DNA of 64,000 nucleotides from NCBI GenBank assembly GCA_000155715.1, contig DS990606.1, positions 1 through 64,000 of the forward strand, read 5' to 3'. Below, piece after piece: positions 17,046 to 32,727 of this stretch (position 1 is the first letter of the stretch; each line of letters starts with the position of its first letter). Origin of the DNA: a gamma proteobacterium HTCC5015. Lineage in GTDB: Bacteria; Pseudomonadota; Gammaproteobacteria; HTCC5015. The position numbers and the translations under genes are program-made. The notes under the pieces are model-generated. The model searched no databases. It was not told the origin of the DNA and saw only the letters and a program-made list of their open reading frames with translations.

Positions 17046-17123
17046 CGCGTAAAAAGCACAGAGGCCACCGAGAACACAAAGAACACAGAGAGCTTCACAG
17101 GTAGGTCGGCTTTTAAGCCGACT
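17046..17123. repeat. dispersed repeat plus palindrome that ends the integrase frame
   Basis: A stretch rich in CACAGAG and CCACCGAGAACAC units (17054-17095) resembles the dispersed sequence near 51303-51345. It is followed by a palindrome with arms GTCGGCTT and AAGCCGAC at 17106-17123. The integrase stop codon lies in the middle of this palindrome. Confidence 0.6.
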
Positions 17124-17991
17124 CCAGCAAGCGCGTCGCAAAACTATGACGAAAAGTGTGGCAACTGGCCTGCTTGTGAATACCCGCACTGCGAATCGCC
17201 TGCTTGACCGCCTTTTGCAAAGTTCGGTGATGCACATGGTGCCGACGCACCACGCCACTGCGCGGGTCGCGGGCGAGATGGGTCGCAGGGAATAAAAATT
17301 GCCACGCCGTCTCCAAAGCCGCATTGGGATACTTTCTCTCTAAGGCATAAGGCATCCACACACGCCCCGCTCCCACTTTCACATCCTGCTGATGAAGCTC
17401 GTGAACAAACTGAATCTGGCTGCGCAACTCGCTCACCAAAATATCGGGCAACAATGTCGTTCTATCCTTGCCGCCCTTGCCTTGACGAACAAACAAAACA
17501 CGCGAAGAAAAATCCACATCCTTCACTCGCAAGCGCAGACACTCATGGGTTCGCAATCCACTGCCATACATTAGGTTCGCCATCAGCCGAACAGCCCCAG
17601 ACAGATGACAAATTATTGCCAAAGCCTCCTCGTGGCTAAACACCTCAGGTACGCGACGATGGGGCTTGGCACGGTGAAAATCGAGCGGTAAATCTTCGCG
17701 CTCAAAGAGTCGTTTATACAAAAAAACCAGCGCATTCAGGGCTGTGGCCTGTGTTGAAGGAGACACTCCTCTAACGATCGCCAAGTGGCTCAAAAACTGA
17801 TCCACCTCAAGCGCCCCCATCTCTTCAGGGTGTCGCTTACCATGAAAATAAATAAACCGCTTTATCCAAAAAACATAAGTCTTCTCAGTCGCCCACGCCA
17901 TATTGCGGACACGCATCAATCGTCGCACGCGATGCATAAGCCGCTGAGATTCTTCTGGAACAGGCCGAGGAACATCATCCATTTCATTCAT
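17113..17991 (-). pseudogene. intI: truncated integron integrase IntI
   Basis: This is a tyrosine recombinase of the integron integrase class, recognised by the IntI-only insertion (YALERKYPNAALETAWQFLF, near residues 215-235) that no other tyrosine recombinase has. Catalytic Arg (GSGLRTHEC, near 147), Lys (RQGKGGKDR) and the HTFRHS box (near 278) are present. The reading frame stops at LLESA, about 292 residues, before the last box. The final His/Trp and the nucleophilic Tyr, usually in a GHxDVxTTMIYTHV segment, are missing, and no continuation was found downstream. A palindrome supplies the stop. The ATG at 17991 has GGAGG upstream; the GTG at 18000 overlaps it. By itself it should be inactive. 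Confidence 0.85.
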
Positions 17992-18000
17992 AAAGCGCAC

Positions 18001-20438: not shown

Positions 20439-21623
20439 CTACGCTCGCCGCTTAGCCGTAACTACTTGGTTTCTGCCACCTTCTTTGGCCTCATACAGTG
20501 CTGCATCGGCGGCCTTGAGTAGATCGTTCATATTTTCCAGCCCCTCGGAGGGAAAACTGGCTACACCTAAACTGGCGGTAAACTGAATGGCTTTTCCATC
20601 GACCTTGACGACCGCCTCACTGATTTTTTTGCGCAGTCGCTCGGCGATTTTCTCTGCCAGCGCCAAATCGACACTGGGCAATAGGATGGCAAACTCTTCT
20701 CCGCCGTAACGACCCACCTCGTCGTATTGCCTCGCATTGTCCATCATGATTTTAGAGGCTACCACCAGCACTTCATCGCCCGCGTGATGGCCCCACGTAT
20801 CGTTAATACTTTTAAAGTGGTCGAGATCTAGCATGATGCAGGCCAGCGTCGGCGAGGGATCGCTTGGCAGGCGCTGCAAGCGCGCCAGCTCCTCATCACC
20901 ACGTTTAATAAATGAGCTACGATTCGTCAGCCGAGTTAAGCCGTCAATCGTCGACATTTCTCGGTACAAGTTTTCTCGCTCGACCCAGCGCCCGACAGCA
21001 AGCAGGCACAGATAAATCAATGCCGATAGAATCAACGCCATCACGGCTTGCACGACCCACCATAAAATATGGGGCGTGCCATCGGGCTGATACAACGAGC
21101 GCTCTAATAAAGGCGCGTGCTCAAGCCAACCGAATAAATCGTTAATGCCTAAACAAACCAATGCGGTAACGACGCACCAAAATAGAAAACGAATTTTCTT
21201 CACATGGGCCAAAGCCGAGGTAATGTTGACGCCGAGAAACAACAACAACAGCCCCTCTGAGAAGTGAGACCCCGTAGCATAGCCGCTCAGCATGACAACC
21301 GCGGTAAAGCTGCCGACGATGAAGTTTTCAAACATCGGCCAGTCTTCCTGCTTATGGCGTTTTTTAAGGGCTACCGCAATAAAGCCCAGCATCACCAGCA
21401 CATGAGCAGCGTATAAAGTCGTTAGCGCGTAGGCCACTTGGCTGTTGAGAAAACTGGGCGCCACCCACAAGACCACCAAAATACTGATAGCAAACAGCAG
21501 GGGGGCGAGCAGTACCAAGCTGCCCAATAAAATAAATCGGTCGATGGCTTTCCAGTCCATCGGATTGGAAAAGCGAGAGGTTTGACTCGACTTGCTCGCC
21601 TGATCGGTTTGATTCGCAGTCAT
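20439..21623 (-). CDS. membrane diguanylate cyclase (GGDEF)
   Basis: This makes cyclic di-GMP from two GTP. The protein has a hydrophobic N-terminal half with about six membrane helices (for example LGSLVLLAPLLFAISILVVL), a short linker starting ENLYREMSTIDGLTRLTNRS, and a GGDEF domain with GRYGGEEFAILLP near residues 303-315. A product-inhibition I-site RQYD lies five residues before GGEEF. No EAL domain is present. The start may be the ATG at 21623 (MTANQTDQ) or one at 21659; neither has a strong ribosome-binding site. The membrane half may sense an unknown signal. Confidence 0.92.
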   Translation of the reverse strand: MTANQTDQASKSSQTSRFSNPMDWKAIDRFILLGSLVLLAPLLFAISILVVLWVAPSFLNSQVAYALTTLYAAHVLVMLGFIAVALKKRHKQEDWPMFENFIVGSFTAVVMLSGYATGSHFSEGLLLLFLGVNITSALAHVKKIRFLFWCVVTALVCLGINDLFGWLEHAPLLERSLYQPDGTPHILWWVVQAVMALILSALIYLCLLAVGRWVERENLYREMSTIDGLTRLTNRSSFIKRGDEELARLQRLPSDPSPTLACIMLDLDHFKSINDTWGHHAGDEVLVVASKIMMDNARQYDEVGRYGGEEFAILLPSVDLALAEKIAERLRKKISEAVVKVDGKAIQFTASLGVASFPSEGLENMNDLLKAADAALYEAKEGGRNQVVTAKRRA

Positions 21624-21675
21624 CGTTCGCACTTCGTTGTGATTATTATGGCCGCCCATGCCGAAGCACGGGGCA

Positions 21676-24627: not shown

Positions 24628-24768
24628 AGTCGGCATGTTAACGAAATCTTCACTGCCCCCCAATTACACTGAGAGTGCATACAGCGGCAATTCGTCCAAA
24701 CAATAAAGCCCCCTTACTCAGCCGCATGAATCACACTTTTTCAGGATGCTCTAGGCGTGCGCGACATC

Positions 24769-25755
24769 ATGACCACACCCACCAACGATATAACGCCCTT
24801 CGCCGATTTCGAATCAGCTGGCCGAGCGGTGCTAGGCACACTCAGTGCGCGTTTTGGTTTTGGCCTGTGGATGATTACTCGCACCGAGGGTGCCGACTGG
24901 ATTGTGCTGCAAACCGACGACAGCCAGTGCCCGAGCAAATACCGTATTGCCGAGGGCAGCGTTTTTAATTGGGCAGATAGCTATTGCTCCCGCATGGCCG
25001 ATGGATTGGGGCCGCGAGTCACGGAAAACGCACAACAGACCCACGCCTATCACGATGCAGCCATCAACCAAGCTGTTCAAATTGGCGCTTATATGGGCGT
25101 GCCTATTCACAACAGAGACGGCAGCTTATTCGGCACACTTTGCGCCATCGACCCCCAACCGCAGAACCCCAGCATCCACCAAGACCTACCGCTGATTGAA
25201 ACCATGGCCAAGCTGTTAAGCAGTATTCTCGCTCACGATCTCAAATCGATAGAGCAGGAGCGCGCGCTACAAAAGAGCCAAGAAGAAGCCGCGACAGACG
25301 CCCTTACCGGCCTCAAAAATCGTCGAGGCTGGGATGCCGCTGTGCTGAACGAAGAGGCTCGCGCCAAGCGCTACGGCAACCCGATAGCCATTTTTGCCGT
25401 GGACATAGATTGCCTCAAGGAAATCAACGATGAACAAGGCCACGCCGCTGGAGACGCACTGATCACTCGTGCGGCAGAGGCCCTGAAACAAGTCGTTCGA
25501 GAAAGTGACACTCTCGCTCGCATTGGCGGAGACGAGTTTTGCATCTTGGCGCTGGAGTGCGATGAAGACGACTCTCAGAAACTGATGAAGAAGCTGAGAC
25601 ATACCTTGAGCCAATACGAGGTGAAAGCCTCTATCGGAAGCGCAATCAGACAGCCCAAACTAGGGCTGCAACATGCCATTAAACAAGCCGACGAGGCGAT
25701 GTATGCCAACAAAGAGGCACGCCACAGACTCTCAGGCAACACCCTAAGGGGGTGA
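24769..25755 (+). CDS. GAF-GGDEF diguanylate cyclase
   Basis: This cytoplasmic diguanylate cyclase has about 328 residues. It has an N-terminal GAF sensor domain (roughly residues 10-155, with MGVPIHNRDGSLFGTLCAID near its end), then TDALTGLKNRRGWDAA and a GGDEF domain with RIGGDEFCILALE. No RxxD I-site is seen at the usual place: RESDTLARIGGDEF shows RESD further upstream, which is offset by one from the expected spacing. The ATG at 24769 was preferred over a GTG at 24757. The end overlaps the convergent ubiX gene by 12 bases. Confidence 0.9.
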   Translation: MTTPTNDITPFADFESAGRAVLGTLSARFGFGLWMITRTEGADWIVLQTDDSQCPSKYRIAEGSVFNWADSYCSRMADGLGPRVTENAQQTHAYHDAAINQAVQIGAYMGVPIHNRDGSLFGTLCAIDPQPQNPSIHQDLPLIETMAKLLSSILAHDLKSIEQERALQKSQEEAATDALTGLKNRRGWDAAVLNEEARAKRYGNPIAIFAVDIDCLKEINDEQGHAAGDALITRAAEALKQVVRESDTLARIGGDEFCILALECDEDDSQKLMKKLRHTLSQYEVKASIGSAIRQPKLGLQHAIKQADEAMYANKEARHRLSGNTLRG

Positions 25756-26370
25756 CAAGCGATCTTCACCCCAGCGCGGTGTGAGTTCGTGCTCGAGGCC
25801 GAGCTGATCGAGTATTTTTCCGACCATAAAATCCACTAGCTCATCGATGCTTTGCGGGCGCGTATAAAAACCGGGATTTGACGGCATGATGGTGGCGCCC
25901 GCGTGGGTCAGCTTGAGCATATTTTCGAGATGAATGGCGGAGTACGGTGTTTCGCGCAGCACCACCAACAGCGGTTTGCGCTCTTTGAGTGCCACATCCG
26001 CAGCGCGGTGGATTAAGTTATCGCTCACCCCCGAGGCAATAGCCCCCAGCGTGCCCGCCGTGCAGGGACAAATCACCATGGCGTCGGCGGCGCCAGTGCC
26101 ACTGGCCACGGGCGCCGTCCACTCCTCTTTGTCAAACACAAAAAGCTGGCCTTCGTCGATGCCAAAGCGCGCTTCAAAAAAGCGCTGTATTTCCTTGGGA
26201 CGCCCCGGCAGTTTCAAGTCAGTATCCATGCCAATAACCACTTGGGCGGGCTTGGACATCATCAGGTAAACGCGGTGACCTTGCTTCAATAGAACTTCCA
26301 GAGTGCGCAAGCCATATTGAGCACCGGAAGCGCCGGTGAAAGCGAGTGAAATGGTTTTTTGTTCAGCCAT
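25744..26370 (-). CDS. ubiX: flavin prenyltransferase
   Basis: UbiX attaches a dimethylallyl group to FMN to make the prenyl-FMN cofactor needed by the UbiD decarboxylase in ubiquinone synthesis. The protein of about 208 residues has the N-terminal FMN-binding LAFTGASGAQYGLRTLEVL, a central MVICPCTAGTLGAIASGVSDNLIHRAADV segment seen here in part as PCTAGTLGAIASG, and RKPLLVVLRETPYS-type residues (ERKPLLVVLRETPYSAIHLE). The ATG at 26370 overlaps the kinase gene's stop by 8 bases. No ubiD is in the window. Confidence 0.95.
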   Translation of the reverse strand: MAEQKTISLAFTGASGAQYGLRTLEVLLKQGHRVYLMMSKPAQVVIGMDTDLKLPGRPKEIQRFFEARFGIDEGQLFVFDKEEWTAPVASGTGAADAMVICPCTAGTLGAIASGVSDNLIHRAADVALKERKPLLVVLRETPYSAIHLENMLKLTHAGATIMPSNPGFYTRPQSIDELVDFMVGKILDQLGLEHELTPRWGEDRLSPP

Positions 26371-27664
26371 GGGCGGAGAGCCTTGCACTGGTAATGGAAA
26401 GTCGATAGATAAGAGTTTGCGTGAAAGCCTTGTAGTAGCGCAACTGGCACTCGGGCGAGGCCTCTTCCATCAACGAGGCGTTCACTTTTAACACCAACAC
26501 ATCAGTCAGCGCCGTCACAGTCGCCGTGCGCTTGGTGGCCGTCAAAAAACCGATCTCGCCAAAGCAATCGCCTTTAACCAATTTATCAATGCGCTTTTTG
26601 CCTTTGTATACTCCCGCATCGCCTTTGGCCAAAATGTAGAAGGTGTCGTCGATATCCCCTTCGTTAATCACATTCTGATCGGCATTAAACGACAGTATCT
26701 GACTGGCGTTGAGCATCTCTTCAATTTCGTCGTCATTGAAGCCATCGAAGAACGCCAAACTTTTTAAGGCGTTTTCGTGTTCGCGGCGATTCATTTGCGC
26801 CTCGGTGTTGCGCAACTGGTCGTAACAGCGCGTGAGCGCCGCCGCCAGCTCGTGCCCCGTCTGATAGCGGTTGCTCGGCGCCTTACTCAAACAGCGTTGA
26901 ATAATGTCGGCCAGCTGGCTTGGCACCTCGGGGTTGAGTTCATCAACGCGCTTGGGCTTGTCGTTCAAAATTTGCCGAAAGACTTCTTTAACCTCTTTAG
27001 AGCGAAAGGGCGCCTCGCCCGTAAGCAGTTGAAACATGACGGCGCCGAGGGAGTAGAGATCGCTGACGGCGCCCATGGTTTCTTTGCGCACTTGCTCGGG
27101 CGACATGTAAGCGGGCGAGCCGATGATTTGGTCGGGGCGATACGCCAGCGACTGCGTGACCTCGGCAATCGAAAAATCCATGATGCGCGCGTCGCCCGTT
27201 ACGGTAAGCATAATATTGCCCGGCTTGATGTCGCGGTGAAGCACGCCTTGGGAGTGCGAGTAGGCCAAGGCCTTGGCGCACTTGAACATAATCTCCACCA
27301 CCTTGCGCGGGGTAAGACGCTTGCCGTTGGGTTTGCAATAATCGAGCAGCGTATCGCCCTCGATGAACTCCATTACGATATAGGCGAGATCGCCCTCGGT
27401 GCCCGCATCAAACAGCGCGACGATATTGGGATGTTGCAAACGCCCTGCGGCGTGGGCCTCAGAGAAAAAGTCGCGCTGTTTTACTATGGTGGCCTCGGCG
27501 TCATCATTGGGATCGTGGCGCGCCACTTTGATGGCCACATCGCGTCTCACAAAGGGATCAAAACCGCCGTAAACCACACCGCAGTTGCCGCGCCCTAACT
27601 CGTCGTAAACCTCGTATTTGCCGATTTTATTCGGCTTCTCAAAACTCAATGCCGATTTATCCAT
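26363..27664 (-). CDS. Ser/Thr protein kinase fused to cyclic-nucleotide-binding-type domain
   Basis: This soluble 433-residue protein has a eukaryotic-type kinase domain (about residues 17-280) and a C-terminal cyclic-nucleotide-binding-like domain (about 300-415). Kinase motifs are the glycine loop GRGNCGVVYGG (24-34), Lys 46 in AIK, HRDIKPGN (143-150) and SPAYMSPEQ. The metal-binding DFG is DFS here (163-165). The C-terminal domain has FGEIGFLTATKRTATVTA, the phosphate-binding cassette. No membrane helix is seen. It overlaps mpl upstream and ubiX downstream by 8 bases each. Binding of cAMP or cGMP is inferred, not shown; the substrate is unknown. Confidence 0.9.
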   Translation of the reverse strand: MDKSALSFEKPNKIGKYEVYDELGRGNCGVVYGGFDPFVRRDVAIKVARHDPNDDAEATIVKQRDFFSEAHAAGRLQHPNIVALFDAGTEGDLAYIVMEFIEGDTLLDYCKPNGKRLTPRKVVEIMFKCAKALAYSHSQGVLHRDIKPGNIMLTVTGDARIMDFSIAEVTQSLAYRPDQIIGSPAYMSPEQVRKETMGAVSDLYSLGAVMFQLLTGEAPFRSKEVKEVFRQILNDKPKRVDELNPEVPSQLADIIQRCLSKAPSNRYQTGHELAAALTRCYDQLRNTEAQMNRREHENALKSLAFFDGFNDDEIEEMLNASQILSFNADQNVINEGDIDDTFYILAKGDAGVYKGKKRIDKLVKGDCFGEIGFLTATKRTATVTALTDVLVLKVNASLMEEASPECQLRYYKAFTQTLIYRLSITSARLSAHG

Positions 27665-29009
27665 GATGTTGTGACTTCCCATTGTTTTTTAAGCAATCGA
27701 GCAAACGCTGGTGGATATTGCCAAAGCTGCCGTTACTCATTACCAGCACGGTATCGCCGCTTTGCAGCGTCTCGGCAATCTGCTGAGGCAATATATCGAG
27801 ATCGCGTTGAACGCGTACACCCTCGCCCTCAAGTGACCACTCGACCTCTTTGGGCAGGTGCAGCCACACCGCATCCGCCGCGGCCAAGGCGGGCAATACG
27901 GCGGCCTTGTGAGCGCCCATGCGCATACTATTAGAGCGCGGTTCAAGCACGGCGACGATGCGTCCATCGCCGACTTGGGCGCGCAGGCCCTCCACGGTGG
28001 TTTTGATCGCTGTGGGGTGGTGCGCGAAATCGTCGTACACTTTGATCCCCGCCACTTCGCCGCGCAGTTCCATGCGGCGCTTCACGTTTTTAAACGCGGC
28101 CAAGGCCTCAATGGCCTGCGCGGGCAGCACGCCGACATGGCGAGCCGCAGCAATCGCCGCCACCGCGTTGTGAGCGTTGTGTTCACCGATTAAAGACCAC
28201 TCCAAGCGGCCTTGGCTCTGCCCTTGAAAGCACACATCAAAAGCACTGAAATCGGCCGCGGATTGCTCGATCGTCCAATCGCCACCCACGCGCTCGACCT
28301 CGCTCCAGCAGCCCATCTTCAACACATCATCCAGCGGCTCCGAGTTAGCGGGCGAAATCACCCGCCCCTGCCCGGGAATACAGCGCATCAAATGATGAAA
28401 TTGGCGCTGAATAGCGGCTAAGTCGGGAAAGATGTCGGCGTGATCGTATTCCAAATTGTTCAAAATGGCCGTTCGCGGCCGATAGTGAACAAACTTGGAG
28501 CGCTTATCAAAAAAGGCCGTGTCGTACTCATCCGCCTCGATAACAAAAAAATCGGTGTCGCCGAGCCGCGCCGAGCAGCCAAAATTTTCCGGCACGCCGC
28601 CAATTAAAAAACCCGGCGCCATACCTGCGCACTCCAGCACCCACGCCAGCATGGCACTGGTGGTGGTTTTACCGTGGGTGCCCGCCACGCCGAGTACCCA
28701 GCGCTGGTGCAACAAGTTCTCCGCCAGCCACTGGGGCCCCGATGTGTAGGGGATGCCGCTGTTGAGAAGGGCTTCAACAATCGGCAAACCACGTTTCATG
28801 ACATTGCCCACAACGACCACATCCGGCGCGGGATCGAGCTGCGCGGGATCGTAGCCCTCAATCAACTGAATACCCGCCGCTTCGAGCTGAGTGCTCATGG
28901 GCGGATACACATTGGCATCGGCGCCCGACACGTGGTGGCCGGCGGCCTTGGCCAATTGAGCGAGACCGCCCATAAAAGTGCCACAAATACCGAGAATATG
29001 GATGTGCAT
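27657..29009 (-). CDS. mpl: UDP-N-acetylmuramate:tripeptide ligase
   Basis: Mpl recycles murein by joining the released tripeptide L-Ala-gamma-D-Glu-meso-DAP to UDP-N-acetylmuramate. The 450 residues are of Mur-ligase type. They show the N-terminal HILGICGTFMGGLAQLAKAAGH, in which Mpl differs from MurC, the ATP P-loop GVAGTHGKTTTSAML, and EADEYDTAFFDKRSKFVHY. The ATG at 29009 has a weak ribosome-binding site. It is followed immediately, with overlap, by the kinase gene and then ubiX, and preceded by an outer-membrane protein gene 17 bases away, so all four may be one transcript. Cytoplasmic. Confidence 0.95.
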   Translation of the reverse strand: MHIHILGICGTFMGGLAQLAKAAGHHVSGADANVYPPMSTQLEAAGIQLIEGYDPAQLDPAPDVVVVGNVMKRGLPIVEALLNSGIPYTSGPQWLAENLLHQRWVLGVAGTHGKTTTSAMLAWVLECAGMAPGFLIGGVPENFGCSARLGDTDFFVIEADEYDTAFFDKRSKFVHYRPRTAILNNLEYDHADIFPDLAAIQRQFHHLMRCIPGQGRVISPANSEPLDDVLKMGCWSEVERVGGDWTIEQSAADFSAFDVCFQGQSQGRLEWSLIGEHNAHNAVAAIAAARHVGVLPAQAIEALAAFKNVKRRMELRGEVAGIKVYDDFAHHPTAIKTTVEGLRAQVGDGRIVAVLEPRSNSMRMGAHKAAVLPALAAADAVWLHLPKEVEWSLEGEGVRVQRDLDILPQQIAETLQSGDTVLVMSNGSFGNIHQRLLDCLKNNGKSQHHG

Positions 29010-31761: not shown

Positions 31762-32727
31762 ATGGATATAAATCAGTTAACCCTACTTGTCGTTGACGAT
31801 ATGCACTTCTCTAGAGAGAGTCTGAGGATCTCCTTGGGCAAGTGCGGCATTACCGACATTCACACGGCCGAAAATGCGCTCCAAGCTCTCAAGGCGGTGG
31901 ATAAATTCTCACCCGATGTCATTTTAGTCGACAAGATGATGCCCAAAGTCGACGGCCCCAAACTGATTTCAAAAATTCGCGCCAAAGACGAAGAGAAGGA
32001 CTCACACACCTATATTATTCTGCTCACCGCCGACGAATCTGAAAACGCCCTGCGCGACGCCATGCTCAGCGGTGCTGATCACTATCTGTACAAAGACGCC
32101 GGCGGCGAAAAGATCATCAACTGCATCGAGTACATCGACACCCAGTTTCGTGCGCAACAAATTCTGAAAGAACTAGAGCAGCAAGAGAAAAATCAGCGTG
32201 AAGCCAGCGAGCAACCTGTGCCGCCCACCTCTACCGCTACCGAAGCCGCCGCTCCCGAGCCGATGCCGCAAGGCGAGACAAATCACGATGGCCCCTCGCC
32301 ACAGGATCTCAGCTGCATTTTGGTGGATGACGAAGATTTTTCAGCAGAACACCTGCAGCGTCTGATGAACAAGCTGAAGGTTTCCGATGTGCGCGTTGCG
32401 AAGAACGCACTCGAAGCGTTAAAACAACACAAAAAAGAGCCTGCGGATTTCATGCTAGTGGATTATATGATGCCCAAAGTCGACGGCATCAAGCTCACCG
32501 AGATGATTCGCGAATTCGATCGCGAGCGCGGCAGGTTTACCCCCATTGTTATGATCACCGCCGCCGCTAGCTTGAAGAAAATTGAAGAGGCGATTAAAGC
32601 GGGCGTTGACGAATACCTCTACAAGCCCCCCAGCGCCCACGACCTAGTGCAGCGCATCGAAGCGGCGTTTAAAAAGCACAACCCCGAGTCGCCGCTGGCT
32701 CAAGCCAACTGGGCTAGCTTTTTCTAG
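31762..32727 (+). CDS. double-receiver response regulator
   Basis: This 321-residue protein has two complete receiver domains and no output domain. Receiver 1 (about 5-130) has the acidic pair DD12-13, phosphoacceptor Asp 57 in ILVDKMMPKVDG, Thr 89 and Lys 111. Receiver 2 (about 183-308) has DD189-190, Asp 234 in LVDYMMPKVDG, Thr 266 and Lys 288. A Gln/Pro/Ala/Glu-rich linker joins them. Both look able to be phosphorylated. No kinase gene is adjacent, so it probably works as a phosphate sink, relay or scaffold in a network encoded elsewhere. The bidirectional terminator at 32745-32775 ends its transcript. Confidence 0.92.
   Translation: MDINQLTLLVVDDMHFSRESLRISLGKCGITDIHTAENALQALKAVDKFSPDVILVDKMMPKVDGPKLISKIRAKDEEKDSHTYIILLTADESENALRDAMLSGADHYLYKDAGGEKIINCIEYIDTQFRAQQILKELEQQEKNQREASEQPVPPTSTATEAAAPEPMPQGETNHDGPSPQDLSCILVDDEDFSAEHLQRLMNKLKVSDVRVAKNALEALKQHKKEPADFMLVDYMMPKVDGIKLTEMIREFDRERGRFTPIVMITAAASLKKIEEAIKAGVDEYLYKPPSAHDLVQRIEAAFKKHNPESPLAQANWASFF

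Follow-up and report, generated by a model that had tools for sequence, protein, structure and literature searches.

A gene for a Hanks-type Ser/Thr kinase with a C-terminal cyclic-nucleotide-binding (CNB) domain lies between mpl and ubiX in the window, a 64,000-nucleotide stretch of DNA from the gamma proteobacterium HTCC5015, and its product belongs to a kinase-CNB family that is widespread in bacteria. We read this protein, with a probability of roughly 0.55, as a soluble and active kinase that is gated by its CNB domain, stiffened by a DFS motif in place of DFG, inserted between mpl and ubiX and translated together with them, with neither Mpl nor UbiX necessarily among its substrates. The CNB domain, which sits on a long helix, would sense a cyclic nucleotide, most likely cAMP, and the activity of the kinase would change in response. 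The Ser of the DFS motif probably stiffens the activation segment in its 'in' state, which would move control from a flip of the DFG segment to the sensor. This branch of the family would have been inserted between the two genes of an older mpl-ubiX operon, and through the overlaps of its start and stop codons with theirs the kinase gene would be translated, and presumably co-expressed, with both neighbors. Direct control of a protein kinase by a cyclic nucleotide is the textbook mechanism of the eukaryotic PKA and PKG, and a large gammaproteobacterial kinase-CNB family would make it possible to test whether cAMP gates kinases in bacteria as well. Of the leads, the clearest is that DFS recurs within a family of sensor kinases; this change would also allow the purpose of the hinge Gly to be tested. 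The operon context by itself matters little.

The open reading frame of the kinase-CNB protein is found on the minus strand, with its ATG at 27664 and a TGA ending at 26363; an alternative in-frame ATG at 27682 is possible. A sequence-only reading of this DNA had described a kinase fused to a cyclic-nucleotide-type domain, with 8-base overlaps between its gene and both mpl and ubiX. The fusion is confirmed by Pfam, in which Pkinase and cNMP_binding both score above their curated cut-offs, and the overlaps follow from the coordinates (Table 1). Other genes of the window include a GAF-GGDEF diguanylate cyclase (24757-25755, plus strand) that is convergent with ubiX, the ends of the two overlapping by 12 bases, and a further GGDEF protein (20439-21659, minus strand). 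A protein consisting of two receiver domains without an output domain is encoded at 31762-32727 (plus strand), and a phage-type tyrosine integrase at 17113-18000 (minus strand).

Table 1. Coordinates in the window of the kinase-CNB gene, its parts and its neighbors.
Feature	Position	Strand	Basis
Kinase-CNB protein, 433 aa (coordinates include the stop)	26363..27664	minus	PknB-like Ser/Thr kinase + C-terminal CNB domain
PknB-like kinase domain, residues 17-269	26858..27616	minus	Pfam Pkinase, E 4e-53, above curated cut-off
DFS (D163-F164-S165, Ser codon TCG) replacing DFG	27170..27178	minus	Sequence reading
Long helix linking kinase to sensor, residues 270-301	26762..26857	minus	AlphaFold2 model, DSSP
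CNB domain, residues 325-400	26465..26692	minus	Pfam cNMP_binding, E 8.5e-17, 61.4 bits vs 27.5
Phosphate-binding cassette FGEIGFLTATKRTATV (E370, R379)	26516..26563	minus	Sequence + alignment
mpl (UDP-MurNAc:tripeptide ligase)	27657..29009	minus	TIGR01081, 714.6 bits vs cut-off 388.7, E 5e-215
mpl stop / kinase ATG overlap, 8 bases	27657..27664	minus	mpl stop ends 27657
ubiX (flavin prenyltransferase family)	25744..26370	minus	TIGR00421, 194.3 vs cut-off 108.9, E 1.5e-57
Kinase stop / ubiX ATG overlap, 8 bases	26363..26370	minus	ubiX ATG at 26370

The kinase domain harbors K46, E69, H143-R144-D145, N150 and D163, all of which are invariant in 32 of 32 aligned rows, the window protein included; the Lys (within VAIK) and the HRD are intact, as had been noted earlier. 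With a domain over the PF00069 threshold and with the Lys, alpha-C Glu, HRD, Asn and Asp in place, the protein falls among the Hanks-type Ser/Thr kinases, and it departs from their pattern in having Ser as the third residue of DFG. A Gly at this position is usual in these kinases but is not strictly required. An AlphaFold2 model of the whole protein, built on a 20-row alignment, has a mean pLDDT of 85.9, and in a VIA-align fold search it matches PknB (5u94) with Z 36.5, rmsd 1.2 and 38% identity over 257 residues. The fold-search rows shown all fall within model residues 6-302, a span that takes in the kinase domain and the first part of the linker helix. Within the activation loop, residues 171-178 are poorly modelled; the loop is variable across the mpl branch, and no conserved PknB-style activation-loop Thr pair stands out by eye among its 26 rows. 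A plasmid search returned 27 records, with none covering 80% of the query; the eight listed align with the kinase domain, and the search is uninformative. Judged by its conserved catalytic residues, the window protein is probably catalytically competent.

The sensor domain is over the PF00027 threshold and carries both the Glu (E370) and the Arg (R379) of the phosphate-binding cassette. In a phmmer search of solved structures, the best match of the CNB part is PKG (E 3e-33), and PKA regulatory subunits also match (E 2e-18); the identity of the domain rests on such sequence matches, and the fold-search rows reach only to the linker helix, so that the lack of CNB rows among them carries no weight. 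For the wider family, 145 kinase ORFs were reduced to 134 distinct two-domain rows by removing nine that do not span both domains and two duplicates. The cassette Glu is retained in 132 of the 134 rows and the Arg in 121, with the Arg absent from the other 13. Within the mpl branch the Arg is lost in nine of the 26 rows, eight of them from a sub-branch of families f52, f145 and f157 and the ninth being L151; one further row, L054, is not aligned at this position. Since the Arg is lost in some of its rows, the mpl-linked branch probably contains members that do not bind nucleotides. The rows L153-L158, L234 and L238 form a mostly mpl-linked sub-branch in which this phosphate-contact Arg is lost and the gene is retained.

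As to the ligand, the source genome contains three class III cyclase matches as well as a CRP-like protein (L243), and the residues of one cyclase (L240) would fit an adenylate cyclase by the general rules for such enzymes. On these grounds cAMP would be the likeliest ligand. The presence of cyclases across the branch was also considered as evidence and was set aside: 21 of the 22 mpl-branch genomes checked have such matches, which do not discriminate. A possible cyclic-nucleotide signalling cluster is found at 30.3-47 kb of contig C20 of the source genome (G000; L246, L002, L241), encoding a protein that has a pair of cNMP stretches and, by eye, a rhodanese-like end, a large Ser/Thr kinase with DFG, and also a class III cyclase. 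On contig C5 of another genome (G001), a cyclase match and a kinase match lie about 9 kb apart.

It is conceivable, though rather unlikely, that an active kinase is here combined with a sensor for something other than cAMP or cGMP, such as a different metabolite or nucleotide, or with a CNB fold that is purely structural. CNB folds that bind other ligands are known, and the f52/f145/f157 sub-branch has kept the gene after losing the cassette Arg. However, both contact residues are present in the window protein, in a cassette that is close to those of PKA and PKG, and the Arg persists in all but 13 of its two-domain relatives. Gating by a cyclic nucleotide is the reading that we prefer for the window protein.

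The order of genes seen in the window is conserved in relatives, as the sequence-only reading had proposed to check, and its refuting condition of an unconserved order does not apply. In a class-wide sample of 369 genomes, 70 have a relative at E <= 1e-74, with 116 matches in all; up to four candidates were scored per genome, which makes paralogue counts lower bounds. Adjacency was taken as a distance within 1000 bases, with the mpl-kinase(-ubiX) order also on one strand. By this measure mpl lies directly upstream of the kinase in 19 of the 70 kinase-bearing genomes, which belong to nine families (20 genomes if G293, with an mpl fragment at a contig end, is counted), and ubiX lies directly downstream in 11. 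All three genes are found in line in ten genomes from five families. In eight of the 11 loci measured, namely that of the window, L144-L149 and L151, the kinase stop shares 1 to 14 bases with a ubiX start. Cluster c7 (for example L153:2972-3535), a small hydrophobic protein with no Pfam match, is often encoded directly upstream of mpl and is present also where mpl is missing.

The mpl-linked kinases also group in a tree of the family, which came from a quick search and has some long branches and deep joins that are not strongly supported: the linkage label requires 2 changes when set against the DFS-only group, compared with 16.8 in shuffles, and 3 changes over all tree rows. Three of the 116 matches (G202:C54, G069:C57 and G291:C85) are absent from this tree, and the 26-row mpl branch was listed from it by hand, with the long-branch pair L060/L239 left out. 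The mpl-linked group also holds Nevskiaceae relatives and a pair from f145. The Nevskiaceae kinases sit away from mpl and ubiX, and the neighbors of these and of the sister-clade kinases are an alpha/beta hydrolase, ribH-nusB-thiL, or pgi together with a CBS protein. A second kinase-CNB clade (L046, L160-L167, L170, L171 and L181) is nearly all DFS and occurs as diverged pairs separated by a few kilobases, in many cases with pgi or a gene for a CBS-domain protein in between. A third clade, with DFG (L044, L178), is located downstream of ribH, nusB and thiL-like genes.

This gene order bears on the proposal that the kinase phosphorylates Mpl and/or UbiX, and in this way ties cell-wall recycling or the supply of prenyl-FMN to the level of a cyclic nucleotide. 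The recurrence of mpl-kinase across nine families and of all three genes across five, the overlaps between the genes and the grouping of the mpl-linked kinases in the tree all favor it. Against it, mpl and ubiX are adjacent without an intervening kinase in nine of the 70 genomes, so that the pair stands on its own; two genomes (G259 and G355) lack any mpl match at E <= 1e-100 and retain the kinase beside the same neighbors; ubiX is elsewhere in six genomes that keep mpl-kinase (G054, G147, G159, G192, G269 and G296); and the Nevskiaceae and sister-clade relatives lie beside unrelated genes. We consider phosphorylation of Mpl or UbiX quite unlikely, and the control of cell-wall recycling or respiration that had been suggested from position is not supported, even though the gene order behind that suggestion is confirmed. 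The idea that the kinase directly controls cell-wall recycling or the synthesis of quinones is weakly supported. Because the kinase family recurs beside many kinds of housekeeping genes, co-expression fits better than control of a single pathway.

In the DFG motif, the Asp is the metal-binding residue and the Gly acts as a conformational hinge. The sequence-only reading had reported DFS in the window protein and had taken the lost Gly for the metal ligand; the motif is present as reported, but the metal-binding residue is the Asp, D163, and it is intact. Nor is the motif special to the window protein, as it recurs on inspection of relatives. Among the 134 two-domain rows there are 59 with DFS, 1 with DYS, 72 with DFG and 2 with DYG, frequencies that apply to this sample, since the searches that supplied the kinase rows ranked them by how similar they are to the window protein. 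DFG is found in 87 of 87 distinct other kinase ORFs, in which the match stops short of the CNB domain (loci L001-L116), and DFS/DYS in none. As DFS/DYS occurs in 60 of 134 two-domain relatives and in none of the 87 others, it is not due to chance, and neither is the mpl-kinase order, with its recurrence in 19 of the 70 kinase-bearing genomes. At least eight changes between Ser and Gly are required on the tree; the Ser codons are mostly AGY, one step from GGY, and five are TCG, including that of the window protein. The raw table looks suggestive, the cassette Arg being kept in 58 of the 60 rows with Ser and 63 of the 74 with Gly, but a link between DFS and a kept Arg was rejected, as the signal vanishes on supported independent pairs (sign test on 7 pairs, median p 1).

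Kinases with a changed DFG are described elsewhere. In Trypanosoma brucei, the DFS kinase TbDYRK is reported in passages of one study to be active, with its S-to-G mutant less active, and DFS is given there as the motif of 2.5% of the kinases of this organism as compared with 0.4% in human (PMC7136023). An excerpt on the Mnk kinases, which have DFD, indicates that the third position of DFG influences the conformation of the motif (PMC1821047). It is very improbable that DFS is the sign of a kinase with little or no activity and that the protein works as a nucleotide-responsive scaffold, or pseudokinase, for although the hinge Gly is lost in the window protein, every catalytic residue is retained throughout the 32-row alignment, the switches between Ser and Gly on the tree leave the remaining listed motifs intact, and TbDYRK is active with DFS according to the passages cited (PMC7136023).

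The architecture of a kinase joined to a CNB domain is already implied in the literature for other bacteria, a passage of PMC11032199 pointing to such Ser/Thr kinases in Planctomycetota. These have the same domain pair as the window protein, and the passage is without DFS or the mpl-kinase-ubiX order. Both of these traits, DFS in bacterial CNB kinases and the mpl-linked kinase, appear to be new relative to the open-access literature searched, in which no paper on either was found, though such papers may still exist. The term 'cyclic nucleotide' is absent from the main text of Krupa and Srinivasan 2005 (PMC1262709) and of a 2018 review (PMC6213207), as judged by a term search.

With the PknB/PASTA kinases, such as PknB of M. 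tuberculosis and Stk1 of S. aureus, the window protein shares the kinase fold and sequence, but it has DFS and not DFG. It also lies outside the PASTA kinases (PknB/StkP/Stk1), with no PASTA domain in the Pfam search and 286.4 bits against a cut-off of 450 for NCBIfam NF033483. TbDYRK is not known to have a CNB domain. That protein is a DYRK-family eukaryotic kinase which, according to the passages on it, shares with the window protein a Ser at the hinge Gly of DFG (PMC7136023).

By sequence, the closest solved relative is PKG, the cGMP-dependent protein kinase, which is the best match in the PDB both for the whole window protein and for its CNB part. It is a long shot that the widespread family of the window protein is a bacterial equivalent of PKG with its domains in the opposite order, where the hinge Ser would lock the 'in' state, the CNB domain would exert control, and the mpl-ubiX branch would tie peptidoglycan recycling or the supply of prenyl-FMN to cAMP. 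Like the window protein, PKG combines CNB and Ser/Thr kinase domains in one chain. However, the tandem N-terminal CNB domains that define PKG are replaced in the window protein by a single C-terminal one: the matched PKG chains have several CNB stretches before the kinase, whereas in the window protein the one CNB domain follows it.
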